Assembly (NCBI GenBank): GCA_014894395.1
Contig: JADBLO010000059.1
Location: 1 to 64,000, forward strand
From: Thermoplasmata archaeon
Lineage (GTDB): Archaea > Thermoplasmatota > E2 > DHVEG-1
DNA: 64,000 bases
Direction of reading: 5' to 3'
Both the position numbers and the translations under genes were made by a program. The notes below the pieces were generated by a model. It was not told the origin of the DNA, did not search any database, and saw only the letters and a program-made list of their open reading frames with translations. How positions within the stretch are numbered: the stretch's first letter is position 1; each line of letters opens with the position of its first letter. This document shows, piece by piece, positions 1,129 through 6,667 of this stretch.

Positions 1129-4100
1129 ATGAAGAGAGTCTTGGTTCCAATTATCGCTTTTCTTCTCATGAGTAGTCAATTGGTTTTTGTTGTTCATGCA
1201 TCCCAGATCATTATACAAAATGCGGATACTCAATGGACTACTGTGACCACTTCAAATTCGGACATGAAAAATTCAACCACAATTGTAAAATCTCGGATTA
1301 TCGCTGAATATGCAGAAACACTATATAGATATTCCTTAAGTCATTCAGTTAATCTTGATATCCTTGCCGCGTTAGTGAGTAATCGAATAATTGTTGAATA
1401 TGCAAATACATTAAAACATTATCCACTCATTCATTCTTCAATTCTCAATTTACTCATTAGTGGGGTACCACCACGTATCATTATGGAATATGCAGAAACT
1501 GCCAAAACCTTTGATTTGTCCCCTTTTAATCAAAGTCAAAATCAACCACCATATGTACCAATGAATCTCAAACAACTTACAATTCAAGGAACAGAAATAC
1601 CTGTTGGTGGCATTGTTACGAATAGAACCATTTACGTCAGAGGAACGGCCAACGATACCAATACTGACAAGGTGCGTCTTCAGATAGAATTACGGCGACT
1701 CACCGAAAACAATGGAACATTCCTAAATAAATATACACAGCAAAGCACGTTAGTGGATAGCGGAAGTCAAATTAATATTACTATTAGTGGTCTTGTTAAG
1801 GGAGACTATCACTGGCAGGCAAGAACAGTGGATCAATATGGTCTGACATCGAATTGGACCAGCTTTGGAAACAACAATAATTCAGCTCTAGATTTCTCAG
1901 TTAACATCACATCCCCACCCGATTCAATCTTTACCTACTCCCCGACATCACCACAAATCGGAGAACAAATATTTTTCAATGCAACACAATCACTAGACCC
2001 AGATGGCGGAGAAATATCATGTTCATGGCATTTTGGTGATGGTCAAGACGGATCAGGAAAAACAACAACCCATGCCTATAACCAAATAGGACAATATAAT
2101 GTGACCCTGACAGTAACCGATAATGAACAGAAAAAAAGCAATTATACGTTAAAAATACAAGTAGTGAGTGACCAGTTACAGGATTGCGTAGAAAATTTCG
2201 TACAAGAAACAAAAAGCCAAATTACCGATATAAGCAATCATGCATTACAGTCAGCTTCTGCCGCTGATTTCTTTAATGACGAAGTGAACAACGATCAAAA
2301 AGAACTCGTAAGAGAGGTCATAGACGCATTATTATCTATTGTTTTTGATTATGGTCTAGAAACTAATACAAAAGTAGGTGCTCTCTCGATATGGGATTAT
2401 TCGAAGTACCATGATATGTTTCCAACCCTTATCGATTTGATTGACACAAAGGGATGGATCGCTGGAGATGTTTTAAAAACCATTCTACAGCAATATGCCG
2501 AAGAAGTTATTTTTGATTACATTCAAAAAAATCATAAAGATTTACTTGAGAACACACAGTATAGTTATCTTGGATCATTTAGTCATCTTTTGTCAACACA
2601 AAATATGCAAAGAAGAAATACTCTGGATGCATTAAAAAACCAGGCTTTAGCAAATCTCAGTAAATTAACTCCTCAACAAATCAATTTATTTGTAAAAGAT
2701 ATTCAAAAGAGGCATACCGGAAATCTGTTTATCGATAATCTTTACTCGACTAAATCTATTTTACCAACCACCCTACAAGCGATTAGAGAACAACTTAATC
2801 AAGATGTTTTATTAATTTTAGTTAATGAACTCGGGTTACCTGCTGCTATGGTGGTTTTATCAATGATATTTGGGCCAGGAGCATCAATACTAGAAAAATG
2901 TATAAAAGTCACCTATCTTTTAAATAAAATGCGTAATGACGCAAAAATAGCATCTATAGGGGCAAACACATTATTTGATGGATTTACCGGATGCGACCTT
3001 ATTTCTCGTAACACCTGTCAAGATCTTATAAATATTAACAAGAAATCTATTCCTTCAACAGTCACTGGAAAAATCGTTTCCATTGAAAATTTTGCAAGAG
3101 GTTGGCTACGAAAACCTGTTCACTATGACGACTATCACGGGTTTTTCCCGGTAGACGTTTATTCTGTAGTGACTATAAAAAACACTGGGAATATCACAGC
3201 AACATTTGAACTTTCAGGAGTGTACACCAAGACCTATAGTTACTTGTATGATTTACCGGTTGTGATTACAGAGAAAAAAGAGGATATTGCGCCTCATCAC
3301 ACAGAGACATTGACGATTTGGTTCAAAAGAAACGGTAGTGGCGCTAATATGGACAATCAAATAGTAAATTATTATCTCCTAGGGATAAACAAAGATAATG
3401 GAGTTTATGCTGCTGATATGACAAGTAGTAAATTTGGGACAACACGAATAGTCACCAATGGAGACATTGTACCCCCGGAAGAATTAGAAAACGCCCCTAT
3501 GTATTCATATCCAATAAAATCTGAAATAACTAAACAAGAAGATATATACAATCTTAGTATCTATCTTGAAAACCCCTTTGAATTCCCTATAGATATCAAT
3601 CTTTCGCAGCAAATCCCAGATACTCTTATCATACTCTCGTCTGAGAATGGTACTATTCTAAATAACAATATTTCTTGGAATATGACCTTAGAGCCAGAGG
3701 AACACAAGGAAATCAACAGTATATTACAACCACAAGGTTCTACCGTGCAACAGGTGAATGTCTCAGGAGCTGAACTAAACATGTATGACCGTGTTCATGA
3801 TTATTGGATTGATTTTCTCTCAAATAATATTTCTTTTAACACAAACATCGCACCGGTTGCATCATTTATTTATTCTCCGTATCCTTCACGAATAAACCAA
3901 GAAGTCACCTTTAATGCCTCGTATTCCAGTGATGTAGATGGAACTATCTCTTCATATTCATGGGATTTCGGTGATTTAACACAGGCTTCTGGAAAAATAG
4001 TTCAGCATATGTATACTGATACTGGCACCTATGTTGTAACATTACAAGTAACAGATGATAAAGGAACCGTGAATAATTCATCAGAGATTATAACGATAAA

Positions 4101-4578
4101 AATGTTATCGCCACCTCAGCTCAATCAAGAATATCCTGGCAATAATTCCAATGGAAATGGACGTCCACCAAGTGATCTCCATTCAACAATATCTGATCCT
4201 ACGGGCGATTCTATGACTGTCTATCTCAGATGGATGAACCATACTGGAAAATGGGTAACTCTTCAGATCTACTTTGTTGTTGGAAATGGTACCTGTAATT
4301 TCATTCCTTCTGATAATAATTGGATATGGGGTAATACCACCTACTTCTGGAGCGTAAACGTCACCGATGGAACTTCTTGGACCAATAAAACCTATCATTA
4401 TACAACCAAGGGGAGCAGGTACGACGTCAACAACAATAATATGGTGAATTTCCAGGACGCTGGATTAGTCTGGACCCATCGTACCAGCCTTGTCCCTTAC
4501 GATGGACTCTATGATGTAAATGGCAACGGACTGGTGAACTTCCAGGACGCTGGACTGACATGGACTCATCGAGATTAA
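1129..4578 (+). CDS. Secreted PKD-domain protein with three N-terminal RIIxEYAxT repeats and C-terminal type I-like dockerin
   Basis: Signal peptide MKRVLVPIIAFLLMSSQLVFVVHA; two PKD domains (WHFGDGQ..., WDFGDLT...); C-terminal duplicated Ca-binding repeat DVNNNNMVNFQDAGLVWTHR / DVNGNGLVNFQDAGLTWTHR. Confidence 0.9.
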   Translation: MKRVLVPIIAFLLMSSQLVFVVHASQIIIQNADTQWTTVTTSNSDMKNSTTIVKSRIIAEYAETLYRYSLSHSVNLDILAALVSNRIIVEYANTLKHYPLIHSSILNLLISGVPPRIIMEYAETAKTFDLSPFNQSQNQPPYVPMNLKQLTIQGTEIPVGGIVTNRTIYVRGTANDTNTDKVRLQIELRRLTENNGTFLNKYTQQSTLVDSGSQINITISGLVKGDYHWQARTVDQYGLTSNWTSFGNNNNSALDFSVNITSPPDSIFTYSPTSPQIGEQIFFNATQSLDPDGGEISCSWHFGDGQDGSGKTTTHAYNQIGQYNVTLTVTDNEQKKSNYTLKIQVVSDQLQDCVENFVQETKSQITDISNHALQSASAADFFNDEVNNDQKELVREVIDALLSIVFDYGLETNTKVGALSIWDYSKYHDMFPTLIDLIDTKGWIAGDVLKTILQQYAEEVIFDYIQKNHKDLLENTQYSYLGSFSHLLSTQNMQRRNTLDALKNQALANLSKLTPQQINLFVKDIQKRHTGNLFIDNLYSTKSILPTTLQAIREQLNQDVLLILVNELGLPAAMVVLSMIFGPGASILEKCIKVTYLLNKMRNDAKIASIGANTLFDGFTGCDLISRNTCQDLININKKSIPSTVTGKIVSIENFARGWLRKPVHYDDYHGFFPVDVYSVVTIKNTGNITATFELSGVYTKTYSYLYDLPVVITEKKEDIAPHHTETLTIWFKRNGSGANMDNQIVNYYLLGINKDNGVYAADMTSSKFGTTRIVTNGDIVPPEELENAPMYSYPIKSEITKQEDIYNLSIYLENPFEFPIDINLSQQIPDTLIILSSENGTILNNNISWNMTLEPEEHKEINSILQPQGSTVQQVNVSGAELNMYDRVHDYWIDFLSNNISFNTNIAPVASFIYSPYPSRINQEVTFNASYSSDVDGTISSYSWDFGDLTQASGKIVQHMYTDTGTYVVTLQVTDDKGTVNNSSEIITIKMLSPPQLNQEYPGNNSNGNGRPPSDLHSTISDPTGDSMTVYLRWMNHTGKWVTLQIYFVVGNGTCNFIPSDNNWIWGNTTYFWSVNVTDGTSWTNKTYHYTTKGSRYDVNNNNMVNFQDAGLVWTHRTSLVPYDGLYDVNGNGLVNFQDAGLTWTHRD

Positions 4579-4599
4579 AGAAAACAAAAGAATAACAGA

Positions 4600-5553
4600 G
4601 TGACTGAAATGAGACAGCAAAACCCCCTCAAATCATATACCGTAGGAATCTTTACACTGATTCTCCTTACATCTTTTTTCCTTTCTTGTAGTAATACTGT
4701 TTTCGGAGAAGAAGTATCAGAAATCAACCTCATTCCCTCATCAAACCAAATCTTAGTCGGACAGGAATTTACTTTAACGCTCTCGATAAACCCAACCGAG
4801 GCAATCGGCGGCTGGTCACTTTCTCTTCGTTTCAACCAAGCACTCATCCAAGCAACCAACATCACCCCGGGAATCGACTGGACTGCATTCTTCAACCAAG
4901 GCGAGATCAATAACCTGAACGGAACAATTGCAGAGATACAGACCTGGAGCACAGGTCCGTATCCAACAACAACTCATACCCTCTGCTCCATTCGTTTCCA
5001 AGCAATTTACGCAGGTATCTGTCATCTTTCTATCGAGCAGGTGCAAGTCACCAACACATCATTTCAAACGATACCTGTTTCTTCTAAAAACACCACTGTC
5101 ACCATTGTAGAAACCTCAGGGGGAAATGACTCTCAAGGTTCAAATGAAGAGCCAGATGGGTATCTCACTGATACCGACCAAGACGGAATCTATGACACCT
5201 TCCATAATAATGAAACAGAGAACGATACTACAATACAAAAACATAACAATCGATATCTCATTGACAGCGACGGCGATGGTATCTGGGATTATTTATTTGA
5301 TCCACAGACGAAAGAAATGACGCAATACCATCCTACGAGCGAAGCAGAACAACAAGATAGCACTCCGCTTTTCATTTTAGGAAGTATTCTTGGCGTGATT
5401 CTTATTTTTTTCGTCATATTTTTACTGTTGACACGAAAGAAAAAAAATAAGTCAGCACCACTACCTCAATCCTTTGAAAGTGAAAAACTAGTAATGGAAA
5501 AAGCAACTCCGAAGAAATCTTCAACAAAGAACCCACGGAAACCAGTAAAATAA
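4600..5553 (+). CDS. Cell-surface cohesin-domain protein with DxDxDG Ca-binding stalk and C-terminal membrane anchor
   Basis: Signal peptide; cohesin-like domain (EINLIPSSNQILVGQEFTLTLSINPTEAIGGWSLSLRFNQALIQATNITPG...TLCSIRFQAIYAGICHLSIEQVQVTN); DTDQDGIYD and DSDGDGIWD; TM FILGSILGVILIFFVIFLLL and a basic tail. Confidence 0.85.
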   Translation: MTEMRQQNPLKSYTVGIFTLILLTSFFLSCSNTVFGEEVSEINLIPSSNQILVGQEFTLTLSINPTEAIGGWSLSLRFNQALIQATNITPGIDWTAFFNQGEINNLNGTIAEIQTWSTGPYPTTTHTLCSIRFQAIYAGICHLSIEQVQVTNTSFQTIPVSSKNTTVTIVETSGGNDSQGSNEEPDGYLTDTDQDGIYDTFHNNETENDTTIQKHNNRYLIDSDGDGIWDYLFDPQTKEMTQYHPTSEAEQQDSTPLFILGSILGVILIFFVIFLLLTRKKKNKSAPLPQSFESEKLVMEKATPKKSSTKNPRKPVK

Positions 5554-5572: not shown

Positions 5573-6667
5573 TTACATTCGAGATTGGTGGAGATAGTCA
5601 TAGAGTGATTTCAGAATTTTAAAACGAGAAAGCAAAGTGAGAAGAAGGGGATGTTGTACCACGCCATGAGTGTAACTTTCTTGGGATGATTGTTCGGGTT
5701 GATCTGCGAAGATCGTATAGGATGACTGTTGCGAGATGATGCCCGATTCAACGATATCTCCACACTGTTCTATGAGAAGGGAGGAATCTTCCATGAGATG
5801 GATGTTTGCTACCTGGCTCTTTTGAAGGATGTTTTCTGATGCTTGTACGAAGGTAATAGTGTCATCGGAGAATGTGCACTGCGTAATCAGATTATTTGAT
5901 GACCCGGCAAGGTAGAGACCAAATCCTTGATTATTGCTAAACTCGCAGTTTGAGATGGTGTTGTTGTCATTGTTTGATTCTATGGCGTCGATGCCTGCAT
6001 GCGTGTTTTGAGTAAAGGTGCAAGAGGTAATTAGGTTGTTTGATGCATATTGGAGTTCGATGCCGTCGCAGTTTTTATAAAAGTTACAGGAGATGATGGT
6101 ATTGTTGTTACATTCCGATGTTGAGGCGCCCAGAAGGACGATTCCTTCGTCGTCGCAGCCTCTGAACTCGCATCCGGAAATCGTGTTTTCTGAGCTCCAG
6201 ATGGCTAGTCCGATAGGGGTGTCGTGGAACGTGCAGTCCTGTATGGTGGTGTTGCAGGCACTGATTTTTACGCAGGTTGTATAGAGTCCTGATCCTTGGT
6301 TGGTGATGTCTAGACCGCTCAGGGTGACTCCTTCTGCACTGATTCTGATGGCGTATCCGTTGTTTGCTGAGGTGGGGGAAAGAAGGGTTCGTGTTGTTCC
6401 TTCTCCTTTGAGGTGGAGTGGTTTGTTGATGGTGAGAATTTCTGTATAGGTTCCTGCAGGTAGTTGGATGGTTGAGTTTGGTTGTGCGGAATTGATGGCG
6501 TCTTGAATGGTGGTGGCAACGGCAGAAATGTCTATTACTATCTCGGTGTTAGGCACGGTGTTCTTTGATGTTGTTACTTCAGTGATTCCCGGAACAAAAA
6601 AGGTAATACTAAGAAATAATAGTGTCGTAAGAAGAGTGAGTAATCTCCTTGTATGCATTTTCTCCAT
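5573..6667 (-). CDS. Secreted right-handed parallel beta-helix (NosD/PbH1-type) protein
   Basis: Signal peptide; IQDAINSAQPNSTIQLPAGTYTE followed by repeated NxISxCxF...N coils (NTISGCEFRGC, NTIISCNFYKN, NLITSCTFTQN). Confidence 0.85.
   Translation of the reverse strand: MEKMHTRRLLTLLTTLLFLSITFFVPGITEVTTSKNTVPNTEIVIDISAVATTIQDAINSAQPNSTIQLPAGTYTEILTINKPLHLKGEGTTRTLLSPTSANNGYAIRISAEGVTLSGLDITNQGSGLYTTCVKISACNTTIQDCTFHDTPIGLAIWSSENTISGCEFRGCDDEGIVLLGASTSECNNNTIISCNFYKNCDGIELQYASNNLITSCTFTQNTHAGIDAIESNNDNNTISNCEFSNNQGFGLYLAGSSNNLITQCTFSDDTITFVQASENILQKSQVANIHLMEDSSLLIEQCGDIVESGIISQQSSYTIFADQPEQSSQESYTHGVVQHPLLLTLLSRFKILKSLYDYLHQSRM

Follow-up and report, generated by a model that had tools for sequence, protein, structure and literature searches.

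A dockerin-bearing secreted protein and an adjacent membrane-anchored cohesin as a probable cell-surface docking pair in an uncultured archaeon of the Thermoplasmatota

A dockerin gene followed by a membrane-anchored cohesin gene

Two adjacent genes of a Thermoplasmata archaeon (GenBank assembly GCA_014894395.1, contig JADBLO010000059.1), here called open reading frames (ORF) 2 and 3, very probably encode a non-covalent cell-surface docking pair, in which the large secreted product of ORF2 would be tethered through its C-terminal dockerin to the cohesin of the membrane protein encoded by ORF3. The genes lie within a stretch of 64,000 nucleotides (positions 1 to 64,000 of the contig), henceforth the window, whose numbering is used throughout. 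The original prediction, made from the letters of the window, had seen here a minimal surface docking system, and this is the best-supported reading of the sequences, drawing on the domains of the two proteins, the anchor of ORF3, the recurrence of the pair in relatives and the covariation of domain types. The domains, the gene order, the recurrence and the covariation are established by our analysis. The features that matter most are as follows.

1129–4578, + strand: ORF2, 1149 amino acids from an ATG start; secreted cargo protein ending in a dockerin
4108–4416, + strand: pre-dockerin domain (spacer) of ORF2; conserved, immunoglobulin (Ig)/fibronectin type III-like by sequence
4417–4575, + strand: dockerin of ORF2 (residues 1097–1149); two repeats
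4600–5553, + strand: ORF3, 317 amino acids from a GTG start; cohesin protein with a membrane anchor
4711–5112, + strand: cohesin domain of ORF3 (type A, as defined below), based on Pfam, AlphaFold2/Foldseek and the cohesin tree
5155–5340, + strand: acidic stalk of ORF3 with two DxDxDG-type loops, DTDQDGIYD and DSDGDGIWD
5368–5430, + strand: single transmembrane helix of ORF3 (residues 257–277), strongly hydrophobic and followed by a basic cytoplasmic tail

As had been claimed, the C-terminus of the 1149-residue PKD protein is a dockerin of two repeats. Its calcium-loop repeats, DVNNNNMVNFQDAGLVWTHR and DVNGNGLVNFQDAGLTWTHR, are identical at 16 of 20 residues, both 12-residue loops (4423–4458 and 4513–4548) are intact by sequence (D1, N3, N/D5, N/D9, D12), and behind each of them comes a short segment of helix-like character, AGLxWTHR. 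The Pfam search that had been proposed gave a divided answer: the window copy scores 14.2 bits against PF00404, below the cut-off of 22.9, whereas a homologue of 742 amino acids sharing the dockerin type of ORF2 reaches 26.2 bits. Because this homologue passes, the calcium-loop positions are kept and a profile of the ORF2 dockerin group reaches dockerins of known structure in the PDB (2y3n, 8.7e-9; the X-dockerin of CipA, 2b59, 1.8e-7), we regard the C-terminus of ORF2, as judged from its sequence, as a real dockerin.

ORF3 starts with GTG 21 bp behind ORF2; translation could as plausibly begin with the ATG at 4609, which would give a protein of 314 amino acids and a gap of 30 bp. The protein consists of a signal peptide, the cohesin, the acidic stalk, one transmembrane helix and a basic tail, and the initial description of it, as a cohesin-like domain on a DxDxDG stalk with a C-terminal transmembrane segment, is upheld by AlphaFold2/Foldseek and hydropathy. 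The lack of any significant profile or structural match had been named as what would refute the cohesin; the profile match falls short, with 18.3 bits (E 0.0029) against PF00963 and a cut-off of 24.1 (passed, in a search of the genome, by two further proteins, C137 and C117), and a structural match was found. The AlphaFold2 model of 4702–5130 is all beta (predicted local distance difference test, pLDDT, 91.2; predicted template modelling score 0.84), and each of the best 50 PDB matches listed by Foldseek is a cohesin module or a complex that contains one, the first being the Archaeoglobus cohesin 2XDH (E 2.2e-9, template modelling scores 0.78/0.81). Since the PDB matches of the model are cohesins, the domain is predicted to have the cohesin fold, a jelly-roll beta sandwich, despite the thin Pfam score. 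The stalk and transmembrane helix (5155–5430) represent a common C-terminal anchor module among surface proteins of the family; the corresponding end of a protein encoded on contig C139 of the same genome is 49% identical (E 8e-28).

According to the docking reading, ORF2 would be exported and folded outside the cell, and its dockerin, with the Ig-like spacer before it, would bind the ORF3 cohesin, which is predicted to be held in the membrane by the single C-terminal helix, atop a probably calcium-stiffened stalk. In this way ORF2 would stay at the surface although it lacks an anchor itself. Calcium would be needed for the binding, as expected from the family, and the near-identical dockerin repeats may permit two binding orientations, as in clostridial type I dockerins. 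ORF2 and ORF3 may share a transcript, together with the upstream ORF1, and docking would presumably occur on the producing cell. Cis and trans docking are not told apart by the sequences, and dockerin/cohesin pairs of anaerobic methanotrophic archaea (ANME) have been proposed to mediate bacterial contact (PMC9012536), so the pair might alternatively serve cell–cell contact, with ORF3 holding ORF2 released by a neighbour or ORF2 bridging to another organism. We consider this improbable, as the co-oriented adjacent genes, 21–30 bp apart, suggest joint synthesis and docking on the producer.

Association of dockerins and cohesins across the class

To examine the wider setting, 80 genomes of the class were searched with cohesin (A2) and dockerin (A3) profiles. 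Half of them, 40, have cohesins, and the initial view of cohesins and dockerins as sporadic in archaea thus does not hold in this class. Both domains are present in 36 genomes and neither in 34 (Fisher p = 3.7e-12). A cohesin lies on the same strand within 1.5 kb downstream of 34 of the 109 dockerins, against 0.2 expected under random placement, and dockerin-then-cohesin arrangements occur in 23 genomes. Thirteen further dockerins have a cohesin only upstream on the same strand, many of them representing cohesin-dockerin proteins, and none has one on the opposite strand only. Seen from the other side, 21 of the 92 cohesin genes carry a dockerin of their own, and for 30 a dockerin gene on the same strand overlaps or lies no more than 250 bp away.

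Dockerin and cohesin types also vary together: the distance matrices of 48 pairs are correlated (Mantel r = 0.73, p = 1e-4), and shuffling partners within genomes lowers the mean correlation to 0.50 (p = 5e-4). The latter test strips much of the shared species history, though it draws on few genomes with several types, and two of the pairs share one cohesin. All these p-values are indicative only, because the genomes of one class are not independent.

These figures bear on a reading of the locus as a mere cluster of surface-protein genes, with the dockerin-like repeats acting as calcium knobs and the cohesin-like domain as an adhesion beta-sandwich having no dockerin partner. Such a reading would fit the position of both window domains under their Pfam cut-offs, and cohesin-like folds have been reported from adhesion proteins that have no dockerin partner, such as TMEM132. 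It nevertheless seems very improbable to us given the same-strand order, the genome co-occurrence and the type covariation, and given that the fold of ORF3 is best matched by an archaeal cohesin, from an organism whose dockerin–cohesin pair is proven.

Dockerin and cohesin types in the genome

In the genome to which the window belongs (92.7% complete, 146 contigs), profile searches found four cohesins and three dockerins at the thresholds used, all four cohesins occurring singly. They fall into two types, type A dockerins being marked by FQDAGLxW and type B dockerins by DLVLVSNHYG. Type A comprises the ORF2/ORF3 pair and the cohesin in which a protein of 3867 amino acids ends (C139, locus L045). 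Assigned to type B are a protein with both domains on C137, a dockerin protein on C15 and, on C117, a cohesin with a membrane anchor. In the cohesin tree the type A cohesins form one clade (support 100/99), which includes those of ORF3, C139 and G032:C30. The 3867-residue protein (L045 1609–13212) is secreted, and behind its gene lies that of a PKD protein of 750 amino acids with a stalk and transmembrane ending.

As C139 carries a second type A cohesin, a scheme of one plug and one socket may be too simple. It could even be that the ORF2 dockerin mainly docks to the giant C139 protein, the ORF3 cohesin taking another dockerin protein; the membership of both cohesins in one clade would allow this, and further dockerins may have been missed given the completeness and fragmentation of the assembly. 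We think this unlikely: the only type A dockerin found in the genome, that of ORF2, directly precedes ORF3, the same order is repeated in relatives, and cohesin sharing within one type would add partners rather than displace the neighbour. The docking of ORF2 to ORF3 is our preferred reading. That the two neighbours are cognate partners, as originally inferred, is well supported at the level of sequence comparison, because the pair recurs, the domain families co-occur and their types co-vary.

Recurrence of the pair in relatives

An ORF3 orthologue, 42% identical over most of its length, is found in G028, a metagenome-assembled genome of a Ca. Thermoplasmatota archaeon (isolate CSMAG_2286). 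It has the same cohesin-stalk-transmembrane build, and the three genes directly upstream of it (contig C49) encode secreted proteins, of which two are NosD beta-helix proteins and the third has 274 amino acids; all three end in the spacer and an FQDAG dockerin. On another contig of G028 (C16), a DUF362 protein with a type A dockerin is followed by an adaptor that combines a cohesin and a dockerin, both of type A. In G032 (C100), a dockerin with an altered recognition motif (VQDLSY instead of FQDAGL) is directly upstream of a cohesin gene of the same clade. The cargo of type A dockerins in relatives is thus a NosD beta-helix protein, a DUF362 protein or unassigned.

The dockerin type has a narrow distribution. 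Among 390 genomes drawn from the phylum, its profile found it in five, all of one family, the fifth (G033) being a weak match. A comparison of two dockerin peptides with about 85,000 species genomes led back to this lineage alone, apart from a single distant match in a bacterium, although the rarity so measured is approximate because the peptide patterns are narrow. No relative of the ORF2 dockerin was found in viral contigs.

Several observations weigh against the docking reading, besides the Pfam scores mentioned above. The AlphaFold2 model of the ORF2 spacer and dockerin is unreliable (pLDDT 46), the dockerin helices being predicted from sequence. G003, of the same genus, has two type A dockerin genes, yet only cohesins of the other type were found in its assembly, which is 84% complete and has one of the dockerin genes cut at a contig end. 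Across the class, 33 of the 92 cohesin genes lack a dockerin gene in the stretch retrieved. Finally, residues 559–588 of ORF2 (2803–2892) are hydrophobic by hydropathy; they could be a buried helix or a membrane segment, and the latter would break the simple topology.

Some further loci may be recorded here. The whole G028 genome (65% complete) has 26 dockerin matches and six cohesin domains, just five of the dockerins being of type A. A locus of G003 (C46; L063 92–2239 and 2437–6935) encodes a type A dockerin protein and, behind it, proteins that on visual inspection resemble a papain-type protease, a protease of the C25 kind and a serpin; a cohesin gene is absent. Scaffoldin-like proteins with four cohesins are encoded in Thermoplasmatota relatives (L058 6848–8857, G072:C71; L125 1438–6989, G070:C18), each directly behind a dockerin gene.

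The cargo protein and its upstream neighbour

The remaining features of ORF2, and the gene before it, are listed below.

189–1082, + strand: ORF1, 297 amino acids; transmembrane/signal anchor at the N-terminus
1198–1540, + strand: N-terminal module of ORF2 with three imperfect 'RIIxEYAxT' repeats, a reading of the sequence
1920–2163, + strand: PKD domain 1 of ORF2 (PF18911)
2164–3843, + strand: orphan region of ORF2, 560 amino acids, delimited by sequence searches and hydropathy
3847–4089, + strand: PKD domain 2 of ORF2 (PF18911; residues 907–987)

The ATG of ORF2 is preceded by a GGTGA motif, and residues 2–29 form a signal peptide region by hydropathy. PF18911 matches the protein in two stretches, with a whole-protein E of 3e-37; a match to PF21027 (cellulose-binding protein domain) was dropped, as it scored under the cut-off and overlapped PKD domain 1. 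The orphan region between the PKD domains makes up about half of the protein. It matches nothing in the remaining 79 class genomes or in the PDB and nothing of note in Pfam, so that adhesion or surface-layer architecture, the role first proposed, is only a possible one. The spacer with the dockerin is 59–66% identical among relatives bearing dockerins, and weaker copies of the spacer are present in many dockerin-free proteins. Convergent with ORF3, a gene at 5573–6667 on the − strand encodes a secreted NosD-type beta-helix protein without a dockerin, in contrast to two type A dockerin proteins of G028, which likewise have a NosD beta-helix.

ORF1, which has no family match, lies 46 bp upstream of ORF2 on the same strand and is possibly part of one transcript with it. 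Its only relative in the 80 genomes of the class (48% identity, full length) is in G039 (C1), directly upstream of the only relative of the ORF2 N-terminus, so that the two are again neighbours (L189 476–1384 and 1435–2571). The second G039 protein, of 378 amino acids, is 41% identical to the ORF2 N-terminal module in its own N-terminus and contains an SLT transglycosylase domain (PF01464, 7e-16). It ends in a hydrophobic C-terminal tail that comes near the Heimdall-CTERM sorting model (22.9 bits, cut-off 24), and profile searches detected no cohesin or dockerin in the G039 genome. ORF2 lacks such a tail and has instead a dockerin, with an anchored cohesin adjoining. This contrast is what the tethering hypothesis predicts, as far as can be judged from one case and about 98 shared residues. 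Archaeal peptidoglycan hydrolases that kill bacteria have been reported (PMC12352652), and the module shared by G039 and ORF2 could be part of surface-displayed weaponry.

Comparison with known dockerin–cohesin systems

Knowledge of dockerin–cohesin pairs beyond the cellulosome goes back to 1999. AF2375 of Archaeoglobus fulgidus carries both a cohesin and a dockerin, and resembles in this build type B loci of the class such as G028:C16 and G040:C112. The dockerin of Archaeoglobus ORF2375 and the cohesin of the adjacent ORF2376 bind strongly and specifically (PMC9705933). Like AF2375/AF2376, ORF2 and ORF3 are adjacent archaeal genes on one strand, dockerin first and cohesin second, without a cellulase context, and the best structural match of ORF3 comes from Archaeoglobus. 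The cohesins, however, are only 13% identical, the window dockerin is of another type (FQDAGLxW), no cohesin accompanies the dockerin in ORF2, and ORF3 bears a stalk and a transmembrane anchor.

There is also a likeness to the anchoring of cellulosomes, where the type II cohesin of an anchoring scaffoldin receives the X-module and dockerin of CipA or ScaA: here, too, a surface cohesin would receive a large secreted protein through its terminal Ig-like spacer and dockerin. The profiles made for the two groups, cohesins and dockerins, reach type II cohesin and X-module-dockerin entries in the PDB. The spacer occupies the position of the X-module in type II cellulosomal dockerins, by which it is likened to X-modules; their kinship is putative, the structure model of the spacer being unreliable. 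In contrast to these systems, ORF3 has an archaeal stalk-transmembrane anchor rather than an S-layer homology domain or a sortase signal. In agreement with the original prediction, no glycoside hydrolase or carbohydrate-binding module exceeds the Pfam cut-off in ORF2 or ORF3, and we reject a cellulosome for this reason; ORF3, moreover, has a single cohesin and is not a multi-cohesin scaffoldin.

The surface proteins described from ANME archaea include some that combine S-layer domains and dockerins, and others that have as many as five cohesins (PMC9012536). They share with the window pair an archaeal, non-cellulosomal nature, variable cargo and a proposed role in surface attachment (PMC9012536), but belong to another phylum, and the window has a linked cargo–anchor pair. 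Among these systems, ORF2/ORF3 is a divergent variant, restricted to its clade and equipped with a separate anchor. Among the literature matches listed, none joined dockerins with Marine Benthic Group D, a result that does not exclude prior reports of these loci, and those for dockerins and Thermoplasmat- were mostly gut-microbiome and fungal studies.

The presence of linked pairs of several types within one genome, along with the G039 case, makes surface anchoring a testable hypothesis for the natural job of archaeal non-cellulosomal dockerin–cohesin pairs. Such linked pairs would also provide new small binding pairs, probably mutually exclusive. We give an even chance to a broader proposal, that this class of uncultured Thermoplasmatota uses parallel cohesin–dockerin types as linked cargo–anchor units, an exchangeable surface fixing that replaces the C-terminal anchor of the cargo, with types such as A and B orthogonal within one cell. 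If true, one membrane could hold separately addressed sets of proteins.

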